NCBI RefSeq assembly: GCF_000303155.1
Contig: NC_018719.1
Span: 1,488,001-1,552,000, forward strand
Direction of reading: 5' to 3'
Length of the DNA stretch: 64,000 bases
From: Candidatus Nitrososphaera gargensis Ga9.2
GTDB lineage: Archaea; Thermoproteota; Nitrososphaeria; Nitrososphaerales; Nitrososphaeraceae
Below, one piece after another: positions 20,195 through 45,683 of the stretch. Position 1 is the stretch's first letter. Each line of letters opens with the position of its first letter. The notes under the pieces were generated by a model that saw only the letters and a list, made by a program, of their open reading frames with translations, made no database searches and was not told where the DNA came from. A program made the position numbers and the translations under genes.

Positions 20195-20247
20195 AAAAAA
20201 CCTTCAAGGATTTCGACGGCAAAGCTGGATGGAGGATCGAACTAAAA

Positions 20248-20299
20248 AAGGCGGGCCCGGTGGTTTTCGGCACCAAAAGGTCTCGGGCCCACCCGCCTT
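20248..20299. other. Strong GC-rich hairpin before the integrase
   Basis: AAGGCGGGCCCG at 20248-20259 pairs with the CGGG (20284-20287) and CCCGCCTT (20292-20299) blocks, a 12-bp stem with a 4-nt bulge and 24-nt loop. It sits between the stop of the broken helicase and the probable integrase start, so it may be a terminator, a translational control hairpin or part of a recombination site. Confidence 0.45.
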
Positions 20300-20324
20300 A
20301 AATGTCAAAAAGGCGGCATATTGT

Positions 20325-27326: not shown

Positions 27327-27406
27327 CTACCATCCCTCTTGTAATATGAAGTATTAATCCATTCTCATTAGTGTTGGTTGTCGAGTATCTATGATAGTCG
27401 ATAAAG

Positions 27407-28138
27407 TCATTGGTACCGCAGCATCGTCGTTAATAGCAGGTCTCCAAACAACATAGCAGCCAGGAATCCTGCAAGCAGAAATACCAAGAATGGCAGATTT
27501 TGGGAAAGCCACACAGGACCATTGGCAGGAATTCTTGAATGACATCCATCTTTGCTGAACGCCTCATCATTGTTCAAGCGGAAGGAGAACTTTTTCTTCT
27601 CATCCGCCGCGCACTCGATCGCAGAGTGGTGACATTTTTGCCCGATTGAAGGGGCACCCACAAAGCATGCCAGCACCTTTCTCCACACAGGCTCATCAAA
27701 ACCTTCAAAAATCCGCCCTCCCCTTGTCACCCTTACAAGATTGCTCAGCGCATTGTACAGAGGCACTGCCATAGCAAAAAGTACAGCGTTTGTCAACACC
27801 ATAATTCCTGTTATTGGATGAACATAGAAAGTGGATGGGGAATAGTAAACTGGCATAATCGCAGATATAGCCATTAGCGCTTTAGCGTCTGCGCCTCCAA
27901 AGAAGCTATACCTGTACAGAGCAACTGCAATCGCAGCAGTCAAAGATACAGAGACCAGAATCATCTGCACGTCGGCCGTTGCTCCAGACACGTATTCCCA
28001 TGGATAGAGAACTAACCCTGCGGCACCAAAAACCATCCATAATCTGTCGTTGACTTCTCTTGTTTTTAGATCATAGTAAGCGCCGATAGAAAGCATTGCA
28101 AGGCACAGGATTTCTCTTACGAAGAGAATGGATAGCAA
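27407..28138 (-). CDS. Type IV prepilin/prearchaellin peptidase (A24-like)
   Basis: 243 aa with about six hydrophobic segments and both membrane aspartates of the family: Asp23 in 'YYDLKTREVND' and Asp84 in 'FFGGADAKALMA' (the GxxD motif, here GGAD). It would process class III signal peptides of pilins or archaellins. A Cys/His-containing soluble loop of about 60 residues (about 145-210) before the last membrane segment is longer than usual. It stands apart from any visible pilin or archaellum gene. It follows the Argonaute operon's promoter side on the same strand. Confidence 0.85.
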   Translation of the reverse strand: MLSILFVREILCLAMLSIGAYYDLKTREVNDRLWMVFGAAGLVLYPWEYVSGATADVQMILVSVSLTAAIAVALYRYSFFGGADAKALMAISAIMPVYYSPSTFYVHPITGIMVLTNAVLFAMAVPLYNALSNLVRVTRGGRIFEGFDEPVWRKVLACFVGAPSIGQKCHHSAIECAADEKKKFSFRLNNDEAFSKDGCHSRIPANGPVWLSQNLPFLVFLLAGFLAAMLFGDLLLTTMLRYQ

Positions 28139-30518: not shown

Positions 30519-31256
30519 CTATTCTATCATCGTCTTATCCGGAAAGAAGTTAAGGCGAGGCCAAAACGGCATTCCCTCCTGTGACTGTTCTTCAAGCGCG
30601 GCCAGCATTCGAGACGGCATCTGCCTTCTGAATACTTCATCTTCCAGGTTTGGGTTCAGCAGGAACATCGTCTTTGCCAGTATTGTCAGCGCTGTTTCAT
30701 CAAGTGATACCCTTCCAATTGGAGTCTCGACGCATGTTTCAGACAGGCTCCCCTTGACGACTATGCAGATTCTCCTGTATCCGTGCTCGTCTTTTACGTA
30801 TGCGTTTCCGTGCCTGTCCACCTTGAAGTTGTCTTCGATGTAGATTGCCTCGTCGTCAGTACTTTTCTCTTCAAAGCGGAGCCTCTGTCTGTATCCCGCC
30901 AGCATGAACTTTAGCAGGTCGATGCAGTTCCTGTCCGCATATTCCTGCAAGAACAGCCTTTCGTATGCTGACGTGGACCCGCATCCGTAGTGCTGCAGAA
31001 TTGCTTCGGCTACTGCATCCCGTTTTCTTATCTGCATCTGTGCAGTCTTGTAGGAGCAGTTGAATATGCCGTCGTCGTACGTCTCCTGTACTTGCATTTC
31101 CTCACTGAATCTGTAGGCTATTCTGTTTCCGTTGAAATGCCTGTACTTTACTTCGGTGTATGGCGTTAGTGGCACCGTTTGCACCTTGCCTTGGAGGATA
31201 AGGACAAACATGTCCTTTCGCTCCTCGAGGATGACGCAAACTGTGTCGGCGGTCAA
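30519..31256 (-). CDS. Hypothetical protein coupled to the GHKL ATPase
   Basis: 245 aa from TTG 31254-31256, overlapping the ATPase stop (TTGA), so the two are co-translated. The sequence is beta-rich at the N-terminus ('MFVLILQGKVQTVPLTPY') and helical later, with a family-like 'CVETPIGRVSLDETALTILA' near residue 190. No motif was recognised. Tight coupling suggests that it is a partner of the ATPase. Confidence 0.6.
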   Translation of the reverse strand: MTADTVCVILEERKDMFVLILQGKVQTVPLTPYTEVKYRHFNGNRIAYRFSEEMQVQETYDDGIFNCSYKTAQMQIRKRDAVAEAILQHYGCGSTSAYERLFLQEYADRNCIDLLKFMLAGYRQRLRFEEKSTDDEAIYIEDNFKVDRHGNAYVKDEHGYRRICIVVKGSLSETCVETPIGRVSLDETALTILAKTMFLLNPNLEDEVFRRQMPSRMLAALEEQSQEGMPFWPRLNFFPDKTMIE

Positions 31257-33577
31257 CTATGGCCCACCTCCTTTGAAATCAGGTATTCCCTCATCTCTCT
31301 GACTTCAGCAGCTTCTTTTGAATACCTGACAGCGTTGAGGAATATGTTCAGCATTTTCCCGTCTTTGACTGCTTTTGCTGCATGGGCTACGCTGTACAAT
31401 ATTTCTGAATCGCCAATTTTGGGATAACTTGGGTCTGCAATGAATTCGCTCCTTCTGTAGTTGTGACCCTCTACATGTGCCAGAGCTTCTGATCCGTCCA
31501 CATCTGCGGTGTACTCGATTCTATGAAACTCGCAGAAGGCCATCAATTCAAAGAGAAGGTCGTCGTCTCCTGCAATTGACAGGTGCTCTTCCGAATGCAT
31601 GTGCCTTGTTATTGAAGGATCGCTGTACAGGACAAGTTTCATTTTCTTCTTGCTAGAGTGTGTGATGGTATCTGTTACCCTCATCTTGCCGTCGCTTGTC
31701 TGCACCATTTTCCTCCCTATGCTGTCGACAAACGATTTCAGGGTTGTTCCTGTGCCACTGCTCTCGAGTTCTCTGTCATCCTTGACGATTTTGTATCTTG
31801 TCTTCACCATAGACAGAAGACGCAGGTACGTTCTCATCGAGCCTTCAGGAACCCTTATGGTATCCCTGCCTATGTCTTCCCTTGCAGTTCTGGTCGTGTG
31901 CCTTTTCACAGTCCTGAATCTCCCCCAGCTGTACCATCCTGCGCCAGCTTCGTGCACCGGCAGGTCTTCGGGAACTATCCTTTCCCTTCTTTTCATCTTC
32001 AGGTTGTTTTCACGGATAAATTCCTCGCCGAACTTTACATCGAATCTTCTGAACAGTTGGAAGGGATCCACTACTACTGTTGAAGAAGAGGATTGTTCTC
32101 GCTCTTTTTTGCCGCTGCTCAGTTTGAAAACTATGGCATCCGGCACCTTTGACCGTATCAGGGCGATCTTGTTTTCGTTGAGGCTGTCGAGATAGAACAG
32201 GTTCTGCGACTGTGCTAGCAGATCTCTGATCTTTGTCCTGTTAGGATATTCAGGTGTCTTTACAGATATCTCGACAAACTTGGCAAGGTCTACGGTGTAC
32301 TCGGAGAGGTATTCTCCAAGTCCCATCCCTTCCAGAACTCTGTAGATTGGCTTGTACTGAGATTCTACGTACTCCTGCACGGATTTCAGGTTCAGGAATT
32401 GCAGTTTTTCTTTCAGGCTGCTCTTTACCTTGTCCTCTATCGCGTTGATTGCATTATCGCTGAGCCTCTCCCTGTCTGCAGTCGGCGGATATTTCCTTTC
32501 GTCCTTTATGTTCAAGACCCAGTGGGAGAAGGGCAGCTGTATCCCATCTGCCTCTATGGGTGTGCCGAGGAGGTACGTTTCGCCAGAGCTGTTGTCAGGA
32601 ATTTCAGCGACGAGATCGTTGTCATATCCCTTTCTTATGGCGATGATGCCATAGAGGTAAAAGTCGGTGTCTTCTTTCGCTTCGACGAACACCATCTTTA
32701 CAAGCGGTCTCCAGGTTTCTGCTGTCTGTACCTTGTTTTCGAGGTACTCGGCAAACGTTATCGTTCCGAGCCTGTACCTTCCTGCCTTGGTATGGACCTT
32801 CTCTATACGGTATGATGGCAATCCGTCTGTAGAGATGTCTTCTTCCAGATTCAGGTAGGTGTCAACGCCTGAAAACATGCATACCTTCATCATGTACTTG
32901 ACCAGATTAACGATGCTTATGCCATGACGCAGGGTCAGGGTTATTCTGGTACCGTATTCATTCAGGTCTGTTGGCGGGGGAAGCACGTTGTAGCCAATCC
33001 CGTTCTTTCCCATGACTGCGTACTTTTCGCCAGTTTCCCTGCTGTACGTCTCAAGCACCATTATGTCCGACAGCGTGACATAACTTGCGCGGCCGCAGCC
33101 AAACTGGCCGACTTCCTTCGAGTCAAAATTATCGCTTCTGCCAAGGACAGTGTACACAGTCAGAAATTTCTCCTGAGACATCCCCATGCTGTCTATCCCG
33201 TGGATCACTAGTTTCCTCTCCGATGGGACGAGGGTTACCTCTATCCTTGGACTTGCGTCATCGTTGTAGTAGTGGTTCCTTGCTATCCTGCATGCCCTGG
33301 CTTCGTTGTTGTACAGCTCTCTAAATCCGGACTCTGCACTGGCATATAGGTCGTGGGAGATGCGCTGGATTACAACATCCTCCTCCAGTTTTACAGGTAT
33401 GAGCCCGTCGCTTGAGGCCTGCAGTAACTTCTCTGCGTACGAAAGCTCCGCCCTGTCAAGTGGCAACGGGTCCTCCTTTAGAAGTGTAGGCTTGTAGATC
33501 CTGACTGCCTCTGTGGCAGTAGCTTTGATCTTGTTTTCGTTTTCGTTAGTACAGTTATTCGTTATAGACAATTTCAA
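31253..33577 (-). CDS. GHKL (Hsp90/MORC/topoisomerase VI B-like) ATPase
   Basis: 774 aa. The N-terminal 200 residues carry Bergerat-fold motifs: N-box 'FRELYNNEARACRIA' (Glu87...Asn91), G1 'GIDSMGM' (Asp129) and G2 'VGQFGCGRASYVTL' (157-165). About 570 further residues, partly basic, are unrecognised; there is no histidine-kinase phosphoacceptor domain or MutL-type endonuclease motif. Relatives include Hsp90, MORC, MutL and topoisomerase VI B, which clamp on ATP binding. In a plasmid- or virus-like operon a role in DNA handling or defence is plausible. The TTG at 33575-33577 is only 2 nt from GGAGG; the TTG at 33569-33571 has better spacing, giving 772 aa. Confidence 0.82.
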   Translation of the reverse strand: MKLSITNNCTNENENKIKATATEAVRIYKPTLLKEDPLPLDRAELSYAEKLLQASSDGLIPVKLEEDVVIQRISHDLYASAESGFRELYNNEARACRIARNHYYNDDASPRIEVTLVPSERKLVIHGIDSMGMSQEKFLTVYTVLGRSDNFDSKEVGQFGCGRASYVTLSDIMVLETYSRETGEKYAVMGKNGIGYNVLPPPTDLNEYGTRITLTLRHGISIVNLVKYMMKVCMFSGVDTYLNLEEDISTDGLPSYRIEKVHTKAGRYRLGTITFAEYLENKVQTAETWRPLVKMVFVEAKEDTDFYLYGIIAIRKGYDNDLVAEIPDNSSGETYLLGTPIEADGIQLPFSHWVLNIKDERKYPPTADRERLSDNAINAIEDKVKSSLKEKLQFLNLKSVQEYVESQYKPIYRVLEGMGLGEYLSEYTVDLAKFVEISVKTPEYPNRTKIRDLLAQSQNLFYLDSLNENKIALIRSKVPDAIVFKLSSGKKEREQSSSSTVVVDPFQLFRRFDVKFGEEFIRENNLKMKRRERIVPEDLPVHEAGAGWYSWGRFRTVKRHTTRTAREDIGRDTIRVPEGSMRTYLRLLSMVKTRYKIVKDDRELESSGTGTTLKSFVDSIGRKMVQTSDGKMRVTDTITHSSKKKMKLVLYSDPSITRHMHSEEHLSIAGDDDLLFELMAFCEFHRIEYTADVDGSEALAHVEGHNYRRSEFIADPSYPKIGDSEILYSVAHAAKAVKDGKMLNIFLNAVRYSKEAAEVREMREYLISKEVGHS

Positions 33578-33583
33578 TCCCTC

Positions 33584-33678
33584 CTTTGGATTTCTTTCTT
33601 GCAGCTGCCTCCACTCTGCCGTCTAGGGAAAGGACCAGGACTTGGACGTCCTTCTTAGAGAGTGGCTTGAAAAAATGT
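33584..33678 (-). promoter_or_regulatory. Structured leader A before the GHKL ATPase gene
   Basis: On the minus strand: CCACTCT ... AGGACGTCCAAG ... TCCTGGTCCT ... GGCAGAGTGGAGG, shortly before the SD (AGGAGG) and start. CCACTCT pairs with AGAGTGG, and inside it AGGAC pairs with GTCCT. The same blocks in the same order precede the gene at 34513, so this is a repeated element. Confidence 0.6.
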
Positions 33679-33746
33679 AGATGAGGTTGATGCTGCGGAT
33701 GGCCATCGGTTCGATTATTTTGTGGCCCCTTCTGCTCTGGTTGTTA

Positions 33747-33995
33747 CTACTGTCGGTCGCCGTCTGACTCTTGCTGATCTTTCTTGTAGTTCTTTACCCA
33801 TTGCTCCAGCGTATACTTCCACTGGTAGGTCTGGTCCGCTAGGTAAAGCCCAGTGTCGACTATCCTGACATACTTGACGTATCTGGACGTTGCCGCTTTG
33901 AAATCTGCGTCTCCGGATATCTTTATGGCAAAATGCTCACCATGCTCGTCGGTCCAGAGCTCTAGTAGCCTTCCTGTCCCTGCAGCCAACGGCAT
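33747..33995 (-). CDS. Small hypothetical protein
   Basis: 82 aa starting at the last base of the upstream stop codon. A mixed alpha/beta sequence ('RYVKYVRIVDTGLYLADQTY') with a charged tail. It ends just before leader A. Unrecognised. Confidence 0.55.
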   Translation of the reverse strand: MPLAAGTGRLLELWTDEHGEHFAIKISGDADFKAATSRYVKYVRIVDTGLYLADQTYQWKYTLEQWVKNYKKDQQESDGDRQ

Positions 33996-34513
33996 TATTC
34001 AGCCTCTTGATTGTCAGACATCCGACCGTCTGCATTCTTGACATCGTCGTTGTCTGCGTCATCGCTAGTGCATTTTTCGTGGACGATTCTTTCGTTTTCG
34101 ATGTACCTTGTCTGGTACTCTGTTACAAGTTCGTTGCACAGCGGGCATACGTCGTTACCGCTGTTGCCGGCGCAGTCCTCCACCTTTACCATCTCTATGT
34201 GTGAAATTGACCAGACGTCCCTCTGATGCACCTTCCAAAAGAGACTGCCAAGTTCCGCCTTGATGGCAGGCGGGTCTATGTAGCCCCATTCCTTTTCCAG
34301 ACCGATGACCAAACCAAAACACTCGTCTGGGTTGTCCCTGTCAGGCGTCCTCTCAGTTACGAACCAGTACCAGCCTGTGAAACTTTCGTAGACTTCTATC
34401 ACCGGTACCAGTTTGCCGTTGATCGACCTGATCGCAGGTATCTCTTTCAGTTTCTTCTTTTCCTTGTTCTTTCCGTCGTCGTTGTTGAATACAGTCTTGT
34501 TGTTGCTCGTCAT
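33995..34513 (-). CDS. Hypothetical protein with a four-cysteine zinc site
   Basis: 172 aa from ATG 34511-34513, with GGAGG 9 nt upstream, a clear Shine-Dalgarno. Middle: 'YWFVTERTPDRDNPDECFG' and 'LVIGLEKEWGYID'. C-terminal third: 'CPLCNELVTEYQTRYIENE' followed by 'RIVHEKC', a zinc-finger-like C-x2-C...H-x2-C. Acidic tail. Unrecognised; encoded in the plasmid-like operon. Confidence 0.6.
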   Translation of the reverse strand: MTSNNKTVFNNDDGKNKEKKKLKEIPAIRSINGKLVPVIEVYESFTGWYWFVTERTPDRDNPDECFGLVIGLEKEWGYIDPPAIKAELGSLFWKVHQRDVWSISHIEMVKVEDCAGNSGNDVCPLCNELVTEYQTRYIENERIVHEKCTSDDADNDDVKNADGRMSDNQEAE

Positions 34514-34539
34514 TTTAGATTCCCTCCTCTATTGTTGCT

Positions 34540-34632
34540 CTCACCTCCACTCTGCCCACCACTATCGATAGTAGGCAGGGACCAGGAAAACGTCGATTTG
34601 GACGTCCCATTCAAAGAGTGGTTTTAAAAAAA
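34540..34632 (-). promoter_or_regulatory. Structured leader B, second copy
   Basis: On the minus strand: CCACTCT ... GGGACGTCCAAA ... TCCTGGTCCC ... an ACTATCGATAGT palindrome ... GGGCAGAGTGGAGG. The closing stem CCACTCT/AGAGTGG equals that of leader A; the inner stem is GGGAC/GTCCC here against AGGAC/GTCCT in A, a compensatory change. It precedes the SD and start of the gene at 34513. Confidence 0.6.
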
Positions 34633-34673: not shown

Positions 34674-34982
34674 TTAGCCGCCGACTACTGCCGGCAGTCC
34701 TACGAACCTGCCAGTGCTGTCTCGTACTATCTTCGCTGTTTCTGGCACCATTCTATTTACCTGCATGAAATGGATTTCTCCATCCATCTCTACAGCGATG
34801 GCGGCCATCTTTGCTGCCCGATGCTTTTCAGAATCGTTCAGCTTTGACAGCAAAGGAATGGTAGTTCGGGGCACTTGTGCGGAACTTTTCTCGATTGGCA
34901 GCCTTTCCTTATTGACTCCTCTTTTTGCCTCTTCTACCACCGCCAACAGAACGTTCTTTGATTCCTTGTGTGTGCTGTGCAT
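34674..34982 (-). CDS. Small hypothetical protein
   Basis: 102 aa from ATG 34980-34982; GGGAGGTG lies 7-10 nt upstream, which decides this start over an in-frame start at 35078. Soluble, with 'KLNDSEKHRAAKMAAIAVEM' and a beta-rich end ('GEIHFMQVNRMVPETAK'). Unrecognised. Confidence 0.6.
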   Translation of the reverse strand: MHSTHKESKNVLLAVVEEAKRGVNKERLPIEKSSAQVPRTTIPLLSKLNDSEKHRAAKMAAIAVEMDGEIHFMQVNRMVPETAKIVRDSTGRFVGLPAVVGG

Positions 34983-35063
34983 TTTAAACACCTCCCAGTG
35001 TTTTTGTCTTGATGCCCGGTAAGTTGCGCTTTGCAGAACAGAAATACCTGCTGCATCAATGTA

Positions 35064-35130
35064 CCTCCAGCCCACCATCCAGTTGATGGTTCTAGCCAGG
35101 ATTTTGACGCATGTTTTAAAGGCTGGCTGG
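35064..35130 (-). promoter_or_regulatory. Possible third structured leader
   Basis: Minus strand: CCAGCCAGCC (35121-35130) can pair with GGGCTGGAGG (35064-35073), enclosing a small hairpin CCATC-AACTG-GATGG. The layout, a closing stem followed by AGG before a gene, recalls leaders A and B, but the loop sequences are not clearly homologous. Confidence 0.3.
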
Positions 35131-35924: not shown

Positions 35925-36716
35925 CTTATCACCTCCTTGTTGTGTCAGGGCCGTGTTTGCAAGCTAGCCCGCCAACTCCCACGCTCCAGGATAGTCCTCA
36001 CTACATGCCTCTTCGAATTGCAACGCAACAACAAAAGAAATCTGGGACTGAATTCCAGACTGTTATGGTAGCGTAGATGCGGTCGTCTCTCTTGAAACGC
36101 TAGAGTTAGTTTTGCCTAACTCGCTTTGGTTCCACACCATCCCGCCGAGTCGGCCTTTTCTGGGTATTGATGGTTTGAACCTGTTGACTCGGTCACTGAA
36201 AAGGTCGTCTCTTGCTGAACTGTTTTTCAGTGCTTGCCGTTGCTATAGGCGCTGTCCTTTTCCGATTCTGCCGTTGGTTTTGGCACCACTGGTGCCATTT
36301 TCACTGCAGCATAGCGCCTTGGTGCCAATTATGCCGGCCGGATGTCCTCAAATTTGGCACCACTGGTGCCATTTTTACCAGGTACTGGTGCCACTTCAAT
36401 CGATTTTTGGCACCACTGGTGCCACTCTTTCGTGCAGAACTGCACAGTTGAAGGCTCTTGCGGAGAATTTACATTAGGAAAAATTTGTGGCCATCCGTGC
36501 CACGCCGGTGGTGCACGCACATATGTGCATGCCGTTTTGAAACGTGCGGTTCGTCCGGTAGGTTTTTTGTTGTAGTTGATAACTACCAGTCCAGTACGCC
36601 GTGGATATAAAAGGCGGAAAAAATTAACTGTTCCGCGGCGCAAAAGAAGATGACCTGCTGAAGAAATCGGCAGCAAGGTAAAATACTCCTGCTTACCACC
36701 ATTTTATGTCCGTGCC
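35925..36716. other. Noncoding control region of the element
   Basis: About 790 nt between divergent genes, with no credible gene; short open frames here are repeats of the palindrome translated. It contains hairpin GAGTTAG/CTAACTC (36103-36122), inverted repeat CACTGAAAA/TTTTCAGTG (36194-36232), the iteron set at 36281-36424, and a 12-bp perfect palindrome GCACATATGTGC (36518-36529). Such density of palindromes is typical of a replication origin, partition site or master operator. Confidence 0.6.
36281..36424. repeat. Palindromic iterons TGGCACCACTGGTGCCA
   Basis: Three identical 17-bp copies at 36281-36297, 36355-36371 and 36408-36424, each an 8-bp inverted repeat around one central base, plus half sites TGGTGCCA at 36320-36327 and 36386-36393 (the latter with a degenerate left arm). 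All lie within 144 nt. They look like binding sites of a dimeric protein such as a replication initiator or repressor. Confidence 0.8.
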
Positions 36717-37427
36717 ATGGTCGTGCGATGCGCAACAATGACGTCAGGTAAATGCACCTACTGTTCCCAGTCTTTCGCGGGTCCTTCAATGGGGCACCAC
36801 CTTGAATCGTGCAAAGAAAGAGAGATGAGCCTTATGTCCAGAATCACAGGCGCCGCCAGCAAAGGCAGTGACAAAGCAGAAAGCAGAGTCTTTCTAATCA
36901 AAGCTTGGTCAAGGTACATGCCAGAGTACTGGCTATTTGTAGATGCGAACACCCGGTGCAGGCTGACCGACATCGATTCATTTCTCAGGCGCACGTGGCT
37001 TGAATGCTGCGGGCACCTGAGCCACTTCATAATAGACGACGAGGAGTACGAATCTTACCCTGACCCTGATTTTGGGAGTGACCAGGACATGCGGGTTGCG
37101 CTGGACACGATTCTTGCGCCGGGTATGACGTTTGATTACGAGTACGACTACGGCAGCACCACCGAGCTTGTACTCAAGGTTGTTGCGGTCAGGCCAGGAA
37201 AATTGAAGAGGGGCCCGGTGGTGCTTGCTGCAAGGAACGACCCCATATCTTTTGAATGTACGTCCTGCAAGAAAGCTGCAGCTACCGATGTCTGTGCGGT
37301 GTGCTTCTGGGAAGGCCCAGAGGCCATGTTCTGCGCAAGTTGCCTCAAACGCCACAAATGTGGAGAAGACATGGCCCTGCCGATCGTCAATTCTCCCAGG
37401 ACAGGAGTCTGTGGATACACAGGGTAA
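36717..37427 (+). CDS. pRiA4b ORF-3-like protein flanked by zinc motifs
   Basis: 236 aa (229 from the second ATG at 36738). N-terminal finger 'CTYCSQSFAGPSMGHHLESC'; central domain (about 55-165) with 'LTDIDSFLRRTWLECCGHLS' and 'MTFDYEYDYGSTTELVLKVV', the pattern of the plasmid pRiA4b ORF-3 family; C-terminal 'CTSCKKAAATDVCAVC' and 'MFCASCLKRHKC' zinc ribbons. The family is linked to plasmids and transposons; function unknown. It is read rightward from the iteron region, divergent from the leftward operon, so it might encode the iteron-binding protein. Confidence 0.78.
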   Translation: MVVRCATMTSGKCTYCSQSFAGPSMGHHLESCKEREMSLMSRITGAASKGSDKAESRVFLIKAWSRYMPEYWLFVDANTRCRLTDIDSFLRRTWLECCGHLSHFIIDDEEYESYPDPDFGSDQDMRVALDTILAPGMTFDYEYDYGSTTELVLKVVAVRPGKLKRGPVVLAARNDPISFECTSCKKAAATDVCAVCFWEGPEAMFCASCLKRHKCGEDMALPIVNSPRTGVCGYTG

Positions 37428-37473
37428 AAGAGCAACAGCTCCAAATGGAGTTGAACTGAAGGAAGACTGTGCC

Positions 37474-39150
37474 CTATCCTTGCTGTTCTGTAACCACGCT
37501 GACCCTGAAGTTTCTGGAGTAAAGCCCGTACAGCCTCTTCCCGTACTTTGCCAGTTCTTCCGGCGACATGAGCAAGTGGTATTCGGCTCCTTCAAGCACA
37601 GAGTGCATCAGCCTCCCAACCCTCTGCAGCTGCTGCCTCCTGGAGCCGCCAAGGAAGTCTATCTCTATGATGTTCTTTATGTCCGGCAGGTCTATGCCTT
37701 CGTCAAAAATCCTGCTGGCGATAAACCGTGGGTGCTTTCTGACCAGCTCAGACCTTTCTTTCAGCGAATGCCTGCCGTGTATGTATGGAAGGCCGGTTAT
37801 CCTTGAAGTGTCTTCTCCAATCGCAATGGTGTCGCAGAACACCATTGTAGGACCTTTCAGCTTTTCTTCGAGCAGCGATTTGAGCAGCATCAACTTTGTT
37901 GAAGTGACATGAAGGTAGACTTCAGGGCGTTTTACCCATCCTTCTTTGAATAGCCGCTCCCAGTCGCTGCCGTACGGAGCGCCGCCCAAAACGTAAATGA
38001 GCTCGCTGCGGCCATCTTCCCGGTGCGGACTCCCTGACAGGCTGAGCCGGTACCTGGCGTCCAGGAACGCCAGGCGGGAATATGTTTCGGCAGGGAAGTG
38101 GTGCGACTCGTCAAAGATGAGCAACTCGTATTTTTCTTTTGTAAGGTGCGCCAGCGCGCTGTCGTATGTTGCGATGGTTATGTCCTTGTGCTTTTCCTTC
38201 TTTGCGCCATAAAACAGGCCTACCGACGGCCTCGAGCCACTGTCAGGGAAGTGCTCCATGATGTACTTCTGCCACACAGAGATCAGCGAGAGGGAAGGGA
38301 CGACCACAAGCGTCCTTCCGGATATGCACGCAGCCACATAGACGCCAAAGAACGACTTGCCTCCACCAAAAGGGTAGACAAGGGTCATGGCGCCATTTTT
38401 CAGAAAGAAATCAAAAGCTTCCTGCTGGTAGGGCCGCAGCTGGATGTCTGTCTGCCACTTCCACCTCTGTTCTACTGGCTTTGAAGTCCATGGAATGACG
38501 CCGTCCTCGACAAGCCTAGAAGCAAGGTTGAACCGGGATGCCCTGGACGGTTTTATGCGGATTCCAATGCCTTCCTCCCTTCTGAGCAGAGAGTCACGGT
38601 ACCTGATCCACGCATCATCAAGCTCGTCCTCGCTTCCAACCAGATAGTCGCCCTGGATCTTCAGGGTCAAGAACCTAGGTTTCAGATCGAGCTCTTCCCT
38701 TAACTCCTCAGGTACGAGGCCTGCCCAGGTCGCATAGTGGTCAACCTTGTAGATGTTGTAAGTCTCTGTCTGGGTTTCAAGCCAGCCAGCCTTGTAGTCG
38801 ATCCACTTTGGAACCACCAGCAGGTAGGTGTTTCCTTCTGCCTGCGGGATCAGGGCATATGGCTTTTTCATAAAGTCTGCCACGGTGCTGTCCCGGGTGA
38901 GGACGGAGGTATCCCTATCGATGCTGTACTCTTCGCAGGGCCCTTTGGCAAGGCCTACGTAGACCCGGTTATAGACAAAGTGCGGCCTGTCGGCCCTAGC
39001 CTTTACCTCTGCCACGTTACGTTGCTTTACCACTGTCTGGCCTTCGTGCCTGATGATGGTACTACTACTGGCAACGGCATCTTCTGCTGCATTGGTGGCG
39101 CCGGAAGGCGGGGCTGTTGTACCAGCTTTTTCTTCTTGTGCGTTGGTCAA
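37474..39150 (-). CDS. XPB-like superfamily 2 helicase
   Basis: 558 aa. A 230-residue N-terminal region precedes the helicase core: 'LRPYQQEAFDFF', Walker A 'FGGGKSF' (261-266), 'TLVVVPSLSLISVWQ', motif II 'LLIFDESHHF' (DESH 347-350), motif III-like 'LSLSGSPHREDGR', and C-lobe 'ASRIFDEGIDLPDIK' and 'QQLQRVGRLMH'. The SxSPHREDGR form is characteristic of XPB/Rad25-type translocases. The start is TTG 39148-39150, overlapped by a GTTGGTCAAC repeat. It resembles the broken helicase at 18912-20194. Likely role: DNA repair or element maintenance. Confidence 0.87.
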   Translation of the reverse strand: MTNAQEEKAGTTAPPSGATNAAEDAVASSSTIIRHEGQTVVKQRNVAEVKARADRPHFVYNRVYVGLAKGPCEEYSIDRDTSVLTRDSTVADFMKKPYALIPQAEGNTYLLVVPKWIDYKAGWLETQTETYNIYKVDHYATWAGLVPEELREELDLKPRFLTLKIQGDYLVGSEDELDDAWIRYRDSLLRREEGIGIRIKPSRASRFNLASRLVEDGVIPWTSKPVEQRWKWQTDIQLRPYQQEAFDFFLKNGAMTLVYPFGGGKSFFGVYVAACISGRTLVVVPSLSLISVWQKYIMEHFPDSGSRPSVGLFYGAKKEKHKDITIATYDSALAHLTKEKYELLIFDESHHFPAETYSRLAFLDARYRLSLSGSPHREDGRSELIYVLGGAPYGSDWERLFKEGWVKRPEVYLHVTSTKLMLLKSLLEEKLKGPTMVFCDTIAIGEDTSRITGLPYIHGRHSLKERSELVRKHPRFIASRIFDEGIDLPDIKNIIEIDFLGGSRRQQLQRVGRLMHSVLEGAEYHLLMSPEELAKYGKRLYGLYSRNFRVSVVTEQQG

Positions 39151-39172
39151 CTCTACCTGTTAGTTGGTCAAC
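39142..39172. repeat. Two GTTGGTCAAC boxes at the helicase start
   Basis: GTTGGTCAAC at 39142-39151 and 39163-39172, each itself a GTTG/CAAC inverted repeat, 21 bp apart (two helical turns). The first overlaps the TTG start of the XPB-like gene. Probable repressor operator. Confidence 0.4.
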
Positions 39173-39231
39173 GCATGCTTCTTAACCTATCCGAGCTGCG
39201 GCTCCCTGCGAGCTTCCATCATCATCCACTT

Positions 39232-41454
39232 TCAGACTATCTGCTTTACCTTCAGGCCCAGTACCCCTTCCTGCCGGTACAGCTCACCTACCACGTCAAA
39301 GGTCGCGCCCTTCTTCAAAAGTTCTCTGGGACCGCTGTAATCGTAATGGTTGAGCCTTGCACGCCACTTTTTGTTTATCATGACCACTGCCCGGCCCTGC
39401 ATCACCTTTTCAACGCGGATGGAATAGATGTCACCTTTTGCTGCAGCCAGGTTGTCTGCCAGCACCACCGTGTCCTCGTTACGCCACGCCAGCCTCCTGA
39501 GCTTCTCAAGCTTCTTCAGTGCCTCGTTGAGCACAGGGTAGTCCAGCGAAAGGTGCTCGCGCAGAAGCTCCACGTCTGCTCCCTTGACTCCTGCCTTTGC
39601 AAGCTCGGTATGTATGCGCCTTGCGGCCCTTTCCACCTCGCGCTGGAATGCGCCGGTGAGCATCTCTTCTTCGGCCGATATCGCCTTCTTCCTGAGCTGC
39701 TGGATGCGGCTTTTGACCTCTGCGTCAAGTACCGCGGCATCGACCGGGCCGCCACCCTTCTTTTTCCCTATCTCCTCTGCCACCTCCTTCCGCAGCCGCT
39801 CTTCCGCCCTTGCCCTCCACCCTTCGAGCGCGGCGAGCTCTTCTGCAGTCACAGGGTTTGGCTCAAGGAAAGCCCTCTTTACTGGCGCCAGTACCGCGTT
39901 TATGGACGAAAGGGACTCTTTCATCCTCTCCACACGCCTCTTGCTGGCATAGAGGTGGCGCGTGTCTATGGTGTCGTTTGCGGCAAGTATCACCACAGAG
40001 CCGGCTGCTTTTCTGCCGGTCCTGCCCCTCCTCTGGATGTACCTTATCTCGCTTGGTACGGGTTCGTAGAATACCACAAGGTCCACTTCAGGGATGTCCA
40101 GGCCCTCCTCTGCTATGGACGTGGCCACAAGCACGTCAAATTCGCCTTCCCTGAAAGACTGGAGCACTGCTGCCTGCTCGTCCTGGTTCATGCCCTCGTC
40201 CCCCTGCCGCTTGGCCTGTCCGACGAACCTTGATGCTTTGATGCCTGTAGAAGAGAGCACGTCGTCTACTATGTGCCTTGCAGTGTCGCGGTACTGGGTG
40301 AATACCAGCACCCGGCCCTTTTGTTGTTGTTTGTTAGAACTGTCGGAGGAGCCGCAACAATACTCCTTTACAAGCTCGACTATGCGCCGGGCCTTCGGAT
40401 GCTCTACAGGAGCCTTTTCAACCAGCGCCCTCACCTCCATTATTTTGGGGTCTTTGAGCAGCGCGGCATGTGCCCTGCCACCTTCTTCCTCTATCCTTTC
40501 AAAGAATGCCCTGAGCGAATGGGCGCCCTGGCTCTCTATCAGCTCAAGGCAGTACAGAGTGAGCGCGGCAGACTGGTTCATTATGGCGACATAAATGGGT
40601 CCGCGCTGCTCCTCCATGGTAAGCTCGAGCCTGTACCTGAGCGCCTCGCCAGCCTCTATCAGGTCGCGCTTGAATATCCACCGGGTGTCCTTCTTTTTGC
40701 CCAAAAGCCCGCGCTGGACAAGCCACTTCAGCCTCTCGTCAAGCATCGACCTGAGAACGGATGCAATGTACCTGTACTCTTCAGGCAGGTCGAACCATTC
40801 CCACTTGACGTCAATAGGGTTGACGTACGGCTTGACATCGCCGTCCTCTTCGCTCCTGTACTCGACGTGCTCTATGTACAGGTTGTTGCACACTTCCTGT
40901 ATCCTTTCCTTCTTGGCTCCCGGGCTTGCGGTCATGGCAAGTATTACAGGGTGCATCGACTGGCCGACGTATTCCCTTGCTATGGCAGTATAGGCGTAGT
41001 CCTTTACCGCCCTGTGTGCCTCGTCAAAGACCAGCAGGATAAAGTCTTTCAGGTGCAGCCTGCCTTCTTCGAGATCGTTTCTCACCACTTCTGGAGTGGC
41101 AAAGACGAGCCTGACATCCCTTTTGTCCCACACCGCCCTCCTTGCTTCAGGTACCGTCTTGCCAGTCACCATTGCCACCTGCTCTTCCATGATTTTCAGC
41201 ACCGCGGAGAAGGACTTCAGGTGTTGTGATACGAGCGGCCGCGTTGGAGCCATCATCAGCACCCTCTTGTCGCGGTATTTGTAGAGCATGTCTGCACACA
41301 CAAGGGCTGCTATCATCGTCTTGCCAAGCGCAGTCGGTAGGATGACCAGGGTATTCTTGTGACTTGCAGCGTCTGCTATGTTCTTCTGGTATAACCTGTG
41401 GTCGATGGTGCCCTCCCATACGAGCGGATGTTCCGCAAAAGACGCTTGGGTCAA
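39232..41454 (-). CDS. Hef/FANCM-like helicase without nuclease domain
   Basis: 740 aa. Walker A 'PTALGKT' (40-46), 'MMAPTRPLVSQHLKSF', 'FDEAHRAVKDYAY' (DEAH 144-147), 'LAMTASPGAKKERI', then a helical insert typical of Hef, and the C-lobe 'FTQYRDTARHIVD', 'VATSIAEEGLDIPEVDLV' and 'YIQRRGRTGR'. The C-terminal 200 residues contain no ERCC4 nuclease motif (ERKxxxD), so this is the helicase part alone plus an unknown domain. Hef acts at stalled forks. The start is TTG 41452-41454; a TATA-like ttttatatt lies about 50 nt upstream. Confidence 0.88.
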   Translation of the reverse strand: MTQASFAEHPLVWEGTIDHRLYQKNIADAASHKNTLVILPTALGKTMIAALVCADMLYKYRDKRVLMMAPTRPLVSQHLKSFSAVLKIMEEQVAMVTGKTVPEARRAVWDKRDVRLVFATPEVVRNDLEEGRLHLKDFILLVFDEAHRAVKDYAYTAIAREYVGQSMHPVILAMTASPGAKKERIQEVCNNLYIEHVEYRSEEDGDVKPYVNPIDVKWEWFDLPEEYRYIASVLRSMLDERLKWLVQRGLLGKKKDTRWIFKRDLIEAGEALRYRLELTMEEQRGPIYVAIMNQSAALTLYCLELIESQGAHSLRAFFERIEEEGGRAHAALLKDPKIMEVRALVEKAPVEHPKARRIVELVKEYCCGSSDSSNKQQQKGRVLVFTQYRDTARHIVDDVLSSTGIKASRFVGQAKRQGDEGMNQDEQAAVLQSFREGEFDVLVATSIAEEGLDIPEVDLVVFYEPVPSEIRYIQRRGRTGRKAAGSVVILAANDTIDTRHLYASKRRVERMKESLSSINAVLAPVKRAFLEPNPVTAEELAALEGWRARAEERLRKEVAEEIGKKKGGGPVDAAVLDAEVKSRIQQLRKKAISAEEEMLTGAFQREVERAARRIHTELAKAGVKGADVELLREHLSLDYPVLNEALKKLEKLRRLAWRNEDTVVLADNLAAAKGDIYSIRVEKVMQGRAVVMINKKWRARLNHYDYSGPRELLKKGATFDVVGELYRQEGVLGLKVKQIV

Positions 41455-41512
41455 CTGCTATTCACAGTAGCTGTCCTGAATAACAGTTGCCGGAGCGAAA
41501 TATAAAAGCAGT

Positions 41513-41839
41513 TCAGATCTCGAACACGTCTTCGCCCGCCTTCACTGCAGGCTTCCTCTCGGGGTTGACTTCGTCGATGCTGTGCGCCAGCTGCTCAAGC
41601 TTGGGGTTGATCAGGAGCTTGGTTATCTCTTCAAGCTCCGGCGCCGACCTGATGACTATGCCCCTCTTTTTTGTTGCAGCGCCGGAGGCGTCTACGGGGT
41701 TGACTTCTATGGCAAGGGAGGGAGCCCTTCCCTTGAACTGGGGCAGCTTGATGAGGAACACCCCCGGTACGCTTGTGGCCTTCCTCTCCCAGTCCTTGCC
41801 GTTCTTCAAGAATTGTGCGAGCCTTTCGTCCGGTGCCAT
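41513..41839 (-). CDS. Conserved-looking small protein
   Basis: 108 aa from ATG 41837-41839, about 35 nt after a TATA-like tttataag. Soluble: 'RLAQFLKNGKDWERKATSVP', then 'LAIEVNPVDASGAATKKRG' and 'LEEITKLLINPKLEQLAHSI'. It looks like a chromosomal thaumarchaeal protein; family not recognised. Confidence 0.65.
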   Translation of the reverse strand: MAPDERLAQFLKNGKDWERKATSVPGVFLIKLPQFKGRAPSLAIEVNPVDASGAATKKRGIVIRSAPELEEITKLLINPKLEQLAHSIDEVNPERKPAVKAGEDVFEI

Positions 41840-41962
41840 TATGGTTAGCAGTCATACTGTCAGGGCTTCCACTTATAAAAACATCGGCTACCAGTCTAGG
41901 GCTGGCCGGCCTTTGCGCTGTGTCCAGATAAGCTTATTTTTGAACCGACGTTACATAGGCTC

Positions 41963-42786
41963 GTGAAAGAGCCGGTTGAATCTCTGGTCCAGAGGCTTGC
42001 CGTGCGCGGCCCTGAAACAGACATGGAAACTGTCAGGTCCATCGTTGCAAGGAAGTAAGAAACCATGCCGCACCTGGTATGGATGGTGACGGAGGAAAAG
42101 TACTGGGATACAGAGTCGGGGTTATTCTCTGTCTGGGCCCCTATCTGCGCGATGCACGTCCTGTCAAAGATTGGCGGGAAAGAAGCTGCTTCTGCTGTCT
42201 ACAGTGCGATGAGAATCCATTATGACGATACTGGAGACTGGATTACCGAAGACATGCCATATGTGCTGGCAGCTTTTGGTATCGAAGGCTCTGACACACT
42301 CGCGTCGATGGTAGCAGATGCCCGACTTGACGAGTATGTAAGGGACCGTGCCGCCAGAGCACTTGTCATAATATCCGGGGTCTACCCGGAAATCAAGTCA
42401 AGGTCTGTAGAGGTGCTGAAGAAGGCGATAACGGACGAAGGCGACGAAAGTGCAAGGAGCATACTGGCAGATACTCTGGCAGAGTTCAAGGATAGTGACA
42501 CACTCCCGTTCTTGGAAGACCTGTTCAAGAGCTGATAGATACAGCCTACATCGATTACGAGACGGTACTGGACATCTACGCCGGCAAGTTTGACCACCTA
42601 CAACACCACATCCCGCGAGACCCTCTTGACATATTCAACCCAGGACCCGGCAACTTTTATAGGAAGAACACCCCTTCGCCTAAATCGAAGGGCCACAATT
42701 CAGGGAAGACAAAAGTTGGAAGGAATGACCCGTGCCCATGCGGCAGCGGCAGGAAGTTCAAGAAGTGCTGCCTGAAAATGGTATGA
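41963..42786 (+). pseudogene. Broken HEAT-like protein with C-terminal SEC-C zinc motif
   Basis: GTG 41963 (TATA-like cttattttt about 25 nt upstream) starts 'VKEPVESLVQRLAVRGPETD', stopped by TAA in frame just before 42059. The same frame resumes as 'HLVWMVTEEKYWDTESGLFS' and a helical-repeat region to a TGA near 42535. The last part is one frame over: '[20 protein letters not shown]' to the SEC-C motif '[17 protein letters not shown]', ending at TGA 42784-42786. The stop and the frameshift make a full-length product impossible without recoding. SEC-C motifs bind zinc and partner proteins. Confidence 0.72.
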
Positions 42787-42823
42787 CTGGCTTTAGAAAA
42801 AATTGCAGCATGGATGGTTGTTT

Positions 42824-42922
42824 TCAGTGCTTGCAGCATTCACAATGGTTCGCTATGCACATCTCTGCCTGTTCATCCATGCATTCCTGGCAGCTGCACC
42901 TGTCTTCTGAGAGTACGTCCAT
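42824..42922 (-). CDS. 32-aa cysteine-rich peptide
   Basis: ATG 42920-42922 to TGA 42824-42826. The peptide has eight cysteines and two histidines in 32 residues: 'DRCSCQEC', then 'MCIANHCECCKH'. A TATA-like ccttattaag at 42941-42950 lies about 24 nt before the ATG, the leaderless spacing seen for other genes here, which is the main support. Likely a metal-binding (zinc, copper or mercury) peptide. Confidence 0.6.
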   Translation of the reverse strand: MDVLSEDRCSCQECMDEQAEMCIANHCECCKH

Positions 42923-42983
42923 AGAGTGGAGCTATGGCCGTACTTAATAAGGGCGCCGGTAACTTTTGAGCGAAGTCTAACCC

Positions 42984-45683
42984 TCAAGCAGGACGGTTTA
43001 GCCACCGTTGCTTTCCTTTTCGGATCTCCTCAAGAAGCGCCATTCCCCTCTCCGTTATTGTGTAGCCTGGCACCCTTTCCATCGCGGATATCAATCCCAG
43101 CTCTTTCAGTTTCAGCGATTTTCGCATAAACGTCCTCCTTGGCATGTCCAGTTTCGGCAAGATATCAGAAGACTTCAGACCTGGGTTCTCCTTTACCGCC
43201 AGAAGGATCTTGACCAAGGACTCGTCGTCAGCAAGTTCCTGATACAGCATATCCATGACCGTTGTTGAGGGTTCTCCTCTCTCCACATCTTCACCCCATA
43301 TTATCTGCTCTTCATTTTCGCCAGAGACATCTGTATTGCTTGCATCATCATCATCTTCTGGATCGCGCTCTTTCATATTCGCCCCTTCGACTTCGGGTCT
43401 TGAAATAGCAGTAGACGTCATTTCCACCCGGCTGTGCTTTTCTGCAGTCATCTCCACATCATCTCTTACGTTCTCCTTTTCTTGTCCTTTTGAAACGAAT
43501 GATTCTGCATCCGCTATCACTTGTTTCAGTAATGCGGGTTCCCTGATTGCGGTTAATGCGTGGACCACTTTTTCTACATTTGAATGAGTTGCAGCCCTGC
43601 TTACAAGCAAGACCGGCACATAAGCAGAAATGCTGCGTTCTTTCAATGCCTGCAGTATCCTCTTTTTCCTCTCTTCGCTGTCTGTTACAAAGACTGTCCT
43701 TATCCCGCTGGCGGCGTTTCGGAGATAGTTCTCGATTACCCTGTCTGGATGTCGTTCGGGGTACACCTCGAACTCCACAGCCCAGGCCGGCGGGCTTTCC
43801 CATTCGTCGGAGTCGTATTTTGAACCGTTGTCTGCCAGTTTTGGTGAGAATGCATAGATGTCCGAATGCCCTTCGCTGAGATGTCCATTGTCTGCAATGC
43901 AGTACCATCCCATCCTCCAGAACGCATGGAGGAAGAGGTCAATCCAGTTGAGATGTACGTCCCCGCCTGCTCTGGCGCCTTTCGGTATTTCGTAAAAAGG
44001 CTTCAACCCTGACTCTGTCAGCGTAAATGTGAACCTCTTTTCGTCTGATTGACTGTCTGCAGCAGTTATCTGGGTTGTCTGCACCAGCCCTTCTCTGACC
44101 ATCTCGTGTAATACTGCCTTTACCTTCTGGAACCCTGCATTGTAGGGTTTGTGGTGATGTGGCGATGATACGGCCTGCTCAAAGAGAGCTTTTGTAGTCA
44201 TTCCATTTCGGTCAAAAAAGAGCCTTGTCTGGATAAACCACTTTAGGGGCGTGGTGAAGAATGGCGGCCTCGGAAAGGAAGCGTTTTTCGGAGCGATAAC
44301 AATAGTCTCACTGCTGTCAGCTTTGTCTTCCAGATCCGAGCTTACCTCCTGCCCGTATATACACAGGCTTTCTACCATGCACTCCTCGCTTCTCATGATC
44401 AATTCCGAGTCACTGATCTGTTTGTAATGCGTTGAGAGTGAGAATGGTTTTAGTGGCATCCCCTTCATCTTGGTGCTTACCATGAACTCGTACCTAGGAA
44501 GGAGCATTATCGTCTGTGTATCATAAGGTGCAAAGAAAGGCGCTATCTCTTTTGCAGTGTCAGGCCCTACAGAGAACGTTATGATTGTAGAGCAGTTTCC
44601 AAACACGGCTTTCTTTATCTCTTCGGTAAATCCGGAGGGGTACTGGCTAACCAGCGTGAGGTAGAGACGGTACTTTGCTACCTCACGGAGGATGTCTATC
44701 ACTGCATCTGTGACAAAGGTGTGGGCTTCATCTACGTACAGGTAACATGCTCTCCTTTTCTCCTTCACTCTCTCGTCTGCCCTGCTTATTGCAGTCTGGA
44801 ATATCTTGTCAAGTAGCAGGCTGCCGATAAACGCAGACATGTCGCCCAGTCTTGCCTTTGATAGATTGACCAAGACGAATTTGCCGCTGTCAATGGCGTC
44901 TCTCAGGTCAAGAGTCTTGACTACAGCACCATCTTTCCTCTTGGTCTTGAACATCTCTTTTACAAGAGGGTCGACAAGGATGGTGTTGAGCCTTGTCAGG
45001 ATAGGTTCCAGAGACTCTGGCCTTATCCTGCCAAAGTCATTGACAAAAAAGTTGACCACGTCTTTGTTTGAGCAGTTTCTCATCAGTCGTTCTCTGTATT
45101 CAACATTGTTTACCACGTAATAGCAGTCTGTTATGTCGGTGGAACCTTTCTCTTGGTCTATCAGAAGCAGGATGGTGTTTCTCATTATCCTCTCAAGCAG
45201 AGGCCCCCACATCCCGCCCGAGAGCTTCTTTACCGCATCAATGAAACCCTGTGCAACTTTCAGGCGGGACAGGCTGTTCGAGTATTCCAGAAAGTCAATC
45301 TTGACTACCTTGCCATGGGTATGTATTGTCATAGGGTCTATCAGTATCGTGTTCTTTCTCTTTTCGTCAGGTATCAACGCCAGTATCTTGTTAACAGAAT
45401 CGCCAGACGGGTCTATGTAGACGAATGGCTCGTCTTCCTGTACATGCTCAAGTATCAGCGTTTCTATAAGAGTGGTCTTGCCGTACTGCGTCCTTCCTAT
45501 TATGAGCGTATGTCCCCTGTCGCTCTTGTACAGGCCTTTCTTCTCTCCGGTGTTGCTGTCGACGCCCAGCAGGTATACAGGTTCTGTGTTGGGTTCTACG
45601 TATTTGGAAATGTCAAACTCTTCTTGATTGTTTCCTTCCTTCCCTCCGTCCGGCTTCTTTCTGATGCGTTCGAATAATCCCAT
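42984..45683 (-). CDS. VirD4/TraG-like or HerA-like conjugation ATPase with extra C-terminal domain
   Basis: 899 aa. Walker A 'GRTQYGKT' (63-70) after 'GLYKSDRGHTLII', Walker B 'ACYLYVDEAHTF' near 320, then 'LYLTLVSQYPSGF', as in type IV coupling proteins. The next part (about 480-590) looks like a winged helix. Residues about 590-740 ('GHSDIYAFSPKL', 'AWAVEFEVYPERHPDRVIEN', 'GIRTVFVTDSEE') resemble a restriction-endonuclease-like or substrate-recognition domain. The end is a second winged helix ('LGLISAMERVPGYTITERGM'). No N-terminal transmembrane anchor. It would bring DNA to the secretion channel. Clustered with the 329-aa gene and membrane proteins upstream. Confidence 0.82.
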   Translation of the reverse strand: MGLFERIRKKPDGGKEGNNQEEFDISKYVEPNTEPVYLLGVDSNTGEKKGLYKSDRGHTLIIGRTQYGKTTLIETLILEHVQEDEPFVYIDPSGDSVNKILALIPDEKRKNTILIDPMTIHTHGKVVKIDFLEYSNSLSRLKVAQGFIDAVKKLSGGMWGPLLERIMRNTILLLIDQEKGSTDITDCYYVVNNVEYRERLMRNCSNKDVVNFFVNDFGRIRPESLEPILTRLNTILVDPLVKEMFKTKRKDGAVVKTLDLRDAIDSGKFVLVNLSKARLGDMSAFIGSLLLDKIFQTAISRADERVKEKRRACYLYVDEAHTFVTDAVIDILREVAKYRLYLTLVSQYPSGFTEEIKKAVFGNCSTIITFSVGPDTAKEIAPFFAPYDTQTIMLLPRYEFMVSTKMKGMPLKPFSLSTHYKQISDSELIMRSEECMVESLCIYGQEVSSDLEDKADSSETIVIAPKNASFPRPPFFTTPLKWFIQTRLFFDRNGMTTKALFEQAVSSPHHHKPYNAGFQKVKAVLHEMVREGLVQTTQITAADSQSDEKRFTFTLTESGLKPFYEIPKGARAGGDVHLNWIDLFLHAFWRMGWYCIADNGHLSEGHSDIYAFSPKLADNGSKYDSDEWESPPAWAVEFEVYPERHPDRVIENYLRNAASGIRTVFVTDSEERKKRILQALKERSISAYVPVLLVSRAATHSNVEKVVHALTAIREPALLKQVIADAESFVSKGQEKENVRDDVEMTAEKHSRVEMTSTAISRPEVEGANMKERDPEDDDDASNTDVSGENEEQIIWGEDVERGEPSTTVMDMLYQELADDESLVKILLAVKENPGLKSSDILPKLDMPRRTFMRKSLKLKELGLISAMERVPGYTITERGMALLEEIRKGKQRWLNRPA

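Follow-up and report, generated by a model that had tools for sequence, protein, structure and literature searches.

A covarying three-helix junction RNA repeated before genes of a conjugation-type operon in Nitrososphaerales

We propose that a small RNA element, repeated in untranslated leaders and between cistrons of a single conjugation-type (DNA-transfer) operon of Nitrososphaerales and first seen in an ammonia-oxidising archaeon, forms a new structured RNA family, which acts in cis and coordinates the downstream genes (probability of this reading about 0.5). On the comparative evidence the structured RNA family itself is real, and compensatory changes have kept it in four families of the order, since relatives in other archaeal families alter letters yet maintain the fold. 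By sequence comparison we show its structure, covariation, strand preference, co-occurrence with the operon and absence from Rfam; judged from the position of the copies, the RNA probably helps to control the genes that follow them.

The window, i.e. the whole stretch of DNA analysed, comprises 64,000 nucleotides (C1:1488001-1552000 of genome G000, a single contig of 2.83 Mb). The second Nitrososphaera genome, G042, has 2.53 Mb. Copies of the element are given the prefix g in G000 and v in G042. The following elements and ribosome-binding sites lie in the window:

33608..33669, minus strand: RNA element copy A (model R1 80.5 bits, E=1.4e-17; model R3 76.1 bits; orthologue L007:10333-10394)
34544..34625, minus strand: RNA element copy B (R1 94.1 bits; orthologue L007:9381-9457)
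35064..35130, minus strand: RNA element copy C (R1 36.8 bits, E=1.1e-6, outside the training set; orthologue L007:8883-8949)
33579..33584, minus strand: Shine-Dalgarno sequence GGAGGG of the gene after copy A
34522..34527, minus strand: Shine-Dalgarno sequence GGAGGG of the gene after copy B

Copy A precedes a 774-aa HSP90-like/rIIA-like gene and copy B a 172-aa gene, while copy C stands before a gene of about 100 residues that ends at 34674 and is the next one upstream in the operon. The original prediction had described ordered sequence blocks common to leaders A and B, all of which were recovered on the minus strand; it counted these two copies in the element, both of them genuine, and overlooked the third, copy C. 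The Smith-Waterman score of A against B is 209, compared to a mean of 81 and a maximum of 126 in 2000 dinucleotide shuffles. A blastn search of the G000 genome with copy B gave no further convincing copy.

Covariance models extended the family. R1, built on the stems P1 and P2 of the four A and B sequences from G000 and G042, recovered the untrained copy C (E value listed above) together with its G042 orthologue (E=3.2e-6), in the same operon and on the same strand. R2 was built from six sequences and run over 400 genomes of the class, where four copies new to the model turned up, spread over three further families of the order: two in G400 (1.9e-12 and 7.6e-11), one in G246 (1.7e-10) and one in G360 (1.8e-5). 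R3, built from ten sequences, returned the identical ten copies and none in addition from 400 genomes of the order, and exactly three copies when run unfiltered on 26-64 kb of the window. Thus, the several hundred genomes searched contain 10 copies in 5 genomes, including the further covarying copies upstream of element genes that had been named in advance as support. Nine of the ten precede genes of this one operon in gene-sense orientation, and a copy before the C-type gene is maintained in four genomes. G400 carries its second copy ahead of the operon section with the rIIA-like gene. Weaker R2 matches in G005, G234 and G075 (E 0.003-0.055) fall inside or antisense to ordinary coding genes, and R3 matches in G252 (0.009) and G225 (0.038) fit poorly; none of these were counted.

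The tenth copy lies outside the operon. In G360 a 124-bp match, starting at P1 and 92.7% identical to a G400 copy, is flanked by a 409-aa gene and an opposite-strand P-type ATPase gene, an unrelated context; its contig of 3.8 kb holds no gene of the cluster. This solo RNA copy plus about 60 nt (L032 945-1068) is preceded by a tRNA-T-arm-like sequence, GGGTTCGAGTCC; ARAGORN called no tRNA in the region. A long conserved stretch 3' of the element was observed in G400, G246 and partly in G360 (L030 5904-6125 and 8613-8830, L031 8845-9090). It contains GGTAAGGCTTC...CTTTGAGCC and GGCGATGA, and perhaps represents a second RNA domain missing from A and B. Folding of the approximately 65 nt 3' of C-type copies hints at more structure, with an unconvincing consensus fold. 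In the window, two more hairpins, UUGAUGC/GCAUCAA and AACAC/GUGUU around the Shine-Dalgarno sequence of the C-type gene, are predicted 3' of copy C (34965-35063).

The element has a length of approximately 62-82 nt and folds into a three-helix junction. Helix P1 (CCACUCU/AGAGUGG) closes it, P2 carries a conserved loop of 12 nt, GUCNAAGUCCUG, and P3 lies flush with P1. The helices of the three window copies are as follows:

33659..33665, minus strand: P1 5' strand of copy A, CCACUCU
33611..33617, minus strand: P1 3' strand of copy A, AGAGUGG
33631..33652, minus strand: P2 hairpin of copy A, AGGAC - loop GUCCAAGUCCUG - GUCCU
34615..34621, minus strand: P1 5' strand of copy B, CCACUCU, with the Shine-Dalgarno region as predicted alternative partner
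34547..34553, minus strand: P1 3' strand of copy B, AGAGUGG
34578..34608, minus strand: P2 hairpin of copy B, GGGAC ... GUCCC
34554..34576, minus strand: P3 hairpin of copy B, GCCUACUAU-CGAUA-GUGGUGGGC (orthologue GCCUAU-CGAUA-GUGGGC, each arm 3 nt shorter)
35120..35126, minus strand: P1 5' strand of copy C, CCAGCCU, partner GGGCUGG
35067..35073, minus strand: P1 3' strand of copy C, GGGCUGG (GGGUUGG in the sister genome)
35074..35090, minus strand: P3 hairpin of copy C, ACCAUC-AACUG-GAUGGU

The closing stem of A and B had been predicted to end next to the ribosome-binding region; the stem stands, and the adjacency holds in A and B only, with about 75-250 nt between element and start codon in C, G400 and G246. 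Correctly identified as well was the inner stem, AGGAC/GUCCU in A and GGGAC/GUCCC in B. This compensatory change in two copies alone would have been weak evidence, and it is the homologues that carry the case. The extra hairpin of copy B had been read as the DNA palindrome ACTATCGATAGT; it is instead an RNA helix in another register, i.e. the P3 listed above. Since copy C also has a P3, at the same position flush with P1 and with a 5-nt loop of the same size as in vB, in different letters, the fold is that of a three-helix junction.

In trimmed elements the pairing probability of P1 is at least 0.96 in all four A and B copies. Compared to A and B, P1 of copy C has two pairs altered on both sides plus a U-A to U-G change, and one of its pairs is G-C in G000 and G-U in the G042 orthologue. 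Homologues that keep the sequence and break the stems had been named as the outcome speaking against an RNA structure; the opposite is seen, as the sequence changes and the stems are kept. Exceptions are P2 in copy C, whose pairs are only partly kept, and P3 in copy A, which is absent (P1 and P2 are kept). Folding energies (z of -2.5 for gB, -1.9 for gC and -0.7 for gA) are modest, weak for copy A, and by themselves do not settle the structure.

In the alignment of all ten copies (A7), which is fitted to the covariance model and whose pair counts are hence biased towards it, 93.5% of the cells are paired versus 79.4% after shuffling, double compensatory changes affect 9 of 18 pairs, double-change cells number 32 versus 12 in the shuffles, and the covariation score was reached by 0 of 500 shuffles. 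Sliding the partners by 1-3 columns lowers the pairing in A7 to 34-53%. In a MAFFT alignment of six copies (A6) 92.3% of the cells are paired and the score was again reached in 0 of 500 shuffles; kinship among the sequences inflates such shuffle tests, and the weight therefore rests on the untrained matches and on the changes themselves. On the gene-sense strand G-U occurs in 11 cells and A-C in 1, which indicates that the fold is carried by this strand, as a single strand. The original view is thus supported in part: a structured leader RNA on the gene strand is well backed by covariation over ten copies, by the new, untrained ones and by the lack of an Rfam match, and the regulatory or protein-binding role proposed with it is a candidate one.

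Between G000 and G042, substitutions amount to 1/58 positions (1.7%) in A, 0/72 (0%) in B and 4.8% in C, compared to 5-12% in flanking intergenic DNA and 5-12% in neighbouring coding DNA. The sole substitution in A lies in the P2 loop. Of the three in C, two fall into the P3 loop and one converts G-C to G-U in P1. The B orthologues differ by a symmetric 3+3 nt indel in P3 and a 1-nt loop insertion; the P3 deletion (CTGCCTACTATCGATAGTGGTGGGCAG to CTGCCTATCGATAGTGGGCAG) takes 3 nt off each arm and retains the stem and the 5-nt loop. At the level of these orthologue comparisons the element is shown to be under purifying selection. Its most conserved unpaired parts are the P2 loop and the strand, approximately CUUUNAA, that joins P1 and P2; such conservation does not extend to the P3 loop. 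This pattern suggests that the P2 side may be recognised by some factor, with P1 and P3 as a scaffold.

The element was assumed to be undescribed, and a search of Rfam 15 (4227 families), covering 30-40 kb of the window as well as L030-L032 with cut-offs of E=5 and E=1, matched nothing on the elements. It was not found in viral contigs with three DNA patterns and one close-homologue search; one viral contig (IMG/VR) encodes a 32%-identical rIIA-like protein without the RNA element. Plasmids gave no DNA match to the element, and their protein matches were HtpG/Hsp90 only. A pattern match in an Actinomycetes MAG was due to chance in GC-rich repeated sequence. In the papers searched on N. viennensis we found no transcription-start map or catalogue of non-coding RNAs.

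The genes after the copies and further genes of the cluster are:

31253..33577, minus strand: gene after copy A, 774 aa, HSP90-like/rIIA-like ATPase
33995..34513, minus strand: gene after copy B, 172 aa, no family, present only in G000 and G042 among 300 genomes of the class
34674..34982, minus strand: gene after copy C (C-type), with its ATG near 34982; the ORF list has it as 134 aa, from an ATG farther upstream
60885-62774: VirB4/TraG-type ATPase (PF19044/PF12846)
42984-45683: VirD4-like ATPase (weak PF10412)
27407-28138: A24 prepilin peptidase (PF01478)

The 774-aa protein weakly resembles phage rIIA (E=0.017) and HtpG ATPase domains (E=0.059). Homologues occur in 8 of 380 genomes of the order, four of them close and four diverged; all four genomes with a close homologue carry the RNA and none of the four with a diverged one does. 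In these diverged operons (G411, G363, G221 and G155) no element was detected even with filters off. The ATPase family corresponds to no Pfam family and is spread over several taxonomic families of the order; wherever its context was seen, this was a conjugation-type cluster. Among 70 genomes of the window's own taxonomic family the 774-aa gene had no match besides G042. The G042 counterparts are 88% (774-aa gene) and 91% (172-aa gene) identical, the two loci are syntenic with about 86% DNA identity, and both leaders are present in G042. G400 and G246 contain the same operon with a VirD4-like ATPase, a short C-type gene, a homologue of a 245-aa gene and an rIIA-like gene 56% identical to that of the window, and their C-type homologues, which share a C-terminal motif, come after an element copy. 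None of the downstream genes matched a ribosomal-protein family above cut-off.

The host locus is a VirB4/VirD4 conjugation-type gene cluster. A phage-type integrase is encoded at 20166-21740, and the synteny with G042 stops at 27390. Its VirB4/TraG-type ATPase, VirD4-type ATPase and A24 prepilin peptidase are shared with thaumarchaeal integrative-conjugative elements, all of which are said to contain a TFIIB gene (PMC6563490). In contrast, neither the 64-kb window nor the surroundings of the G042 and G246 loci contained a TFIIB gene, the nearest one in G000 being about 58 kb outside the window, and the locus is therefore not firmly classed with these elements (PMC6563490).

Further features were observed upstream in the same region. 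The palindrome GGCACCASTGGTGCC occurs three times upstream of the operon (window 36279-36431; L007 7610-7760) and its copies read GGTACCASTGGTACC in the sister genome, a concerted change that suggests co-evolution with a DNA-binding protein. A non-coding leader of about 355 nt before a 104-aa gene (35925-36281) has 4.2% substitutions between G000 and G042 and includes blocks of 60 bases identical in both genomes; it may be a further structured RNA or a control region, and no similarity to the G400 and G246 leaders was found. Two helicase genes (558 and 740 aa) lie at 36620-43014, a stretch missing from the syntenic G042 locus.

How the RNA might influence the genes following it can be outlined as a model. 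The element would act in cis as a recognition platform, with the conserved P2 loop and P1/P2 joining strand binding a factor, most likely a protein and perhaps one encoded by the element itself. Binding of this factor could then coordinate the expression of the genes after each copy. For copy B a local consequence can be formulated. Its element ends 16-19 nt before the Shine-Dalgarno sequence, and in the full leader the 5' strand of P1 is predicted, in gB and vB, to be able to pair with the Shine-Dalgarno region AGAGGAGG instead. In the free ensemble the probability of an unpaired Shine-Dalgarno sequence is 0.19 for gB and 0.36 for vB. Forcing P1 raises it to 0.75 in either case and costs the ensemble 1.8 (gB) and 0.9 (vB) kcal/mol; the two B orthologues are too alike for a covariation test of this switch. 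In copy B only, a factor stabilising P1 would free the ribosome-binding site and thus constitute an ON switch. No such exchange is predicted for A, whose Shine-Dalgarno sequence is open with or without P1, or for C, which is unaffected by P1. As the elements of C, G400 and G246 are far from the start codon, translational switching is not the general mechanism, and in these cases the RNA may act on elongation, processing or stability of the transcript. The distance between element and start varies among the copies, and the general role is thus best stated as that of a cis-acting recognition platform with context-dependent local consequences.

Several other explanations were considered. The untranslated regions of the operon might house, in these copies, genes or precursors of a stand-alone small RNA that acts in trans or belongs to a ribonucleoprotein. 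The G360 unit, which starts at P1 in unrelated surroundings, and the spacing to the following start codon, which ranges from about 30 to 250 nt, fit this idea. We nevertheless regard it as unlikely, given the same-strand operon genes behind nine of ten copies and the C-type position kept in four genomes; furthermore, a small-RNA gene would not usually be present several times per genome in diverged form, and conservation outside P1-P3 is not common to A and B. The solo copy also hints that the RNA may spread separately from the operon, as a mobile module bound via the P2 loop that serves archaeal conjugative elements as a repeated signal for elongation or RNA-protein assembly, the counterpart in archaea of control by put/EAR-type RNAs; this is a long shot, with somewhat poorer prospects than a stand-alone RNA. 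A shade less credible again is elongation control, e.g. by an archaeal analogue of put/EAR-type RNAs that carries RNA polymerase through the terminators of a long operon in a mobile element. T6-7 tracts are terminator-like in archaea, and copies A, B and G400a are located immediately 3' of such tracts; the element is repeated along one operon, and in G400 and G246 C-type copies occur in long leaders before an operon section. However, the T-tract precedes the RNA, whereas an antitermination RNA should precede its terminator, and no antitermination factor was found.

Readings at the DNA or coding level fare worse. The conserved blocks could comprise a TATA box (TTTTTTTAAAA just upstream in B) and palindromic operators (GGACGTCC, a perfect palindrome, and CCACTCT/AGAGTGG) of an element repressor, and the spacing from the T-tract to GGACGTCCAA is indeed fixed in A and B. 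Yet C, G400b and G246 keep P1-P3 without T-tract and palindrome, the P1 half-sites vary between copies within one genome and stay complementary, and P3 contains G-U pairs in a register different from that of the DNA palindrome, in line with the excess of G-U over A-C; such operators are very unlikely. We give even less chance to a single-stranded DNA structure, for instance a hairpin for transfer initiation or integration of a conjugative element. The VirB4/VirD4-type cluster and the solo copy in G360 would suit it, and single-strand folding alone does not separate RNA from DNA, but two or three copies within one operon, always gene sense and mostly just before coding starts, speak against it, and nothing puts copies at an element end. 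Finally, a short coding region (FKPLSKKDVQVLVLSLDGRVEAAAR in copy A) has next to no probability: in copy A both Nitrososphaera genomes keep the frame open, the single substitution is synonymous and indels restore the frame, whereas the matching frames of G400a, G246 and gB contain stops, a 1-nt indel disrupts the B frame between orthologues, and changes track pairing rather than codon position. The coding reading was rejected on account of these stops and the indel in B.

A cis-acting leader RNA, our preferred reading, has practical implications. To our knowledge, few cis-acting structured RNAs have been described in archaea, and we know of none for conjugation-type elements of thaumarchaea. 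A junction RNA repeated before several genes of an operon offers a handle on gene coordination in such elements, its covariance model is a marker for locating related operons, and the RNA is directly testable in N. viennensis-type cultures and in vitro.

As a new family, the RNA belongs to a known kind, the structured leader elements. With three-way-junction riboswitches it shares a junction closed by P1, two hairpins and unpaired stretches that are conserved; for copy B, folding predicts a possible exchange between P1 and the Shine-Dalgarno sequence. It differs from these riboswitches in having no Rfam match, in preceding genes of a mobile-element operon without a shared metabolite, and in that the P3 loop is variable and P3 is absent in A. 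The put fold is unlike the three-helix junction of the element. The put and EAR-LoaP processive antitermination RNAs (for LoaP, PMC12691694) are likewise structured RNAs in leaders and between genes of long operons, mobile elements included, but the element has its T-tracts before and not after the RNA, and no factor was found. Autoregulatory protein-binding mRNA leaders, such as the ribosomal-protein leaders of bacteria and archaea (PMC7247131), differ in that the genes downstream of our element do not encode ribosomal proteins and that it is repeated before several genes of one operon. Like these leaders (PMC7247131), it is a small structured element of the 5' untranslated region that presents conserved loop nucleotides on a covarying scaffold and, in copies A and B, adjoins the ribosome-binding site.
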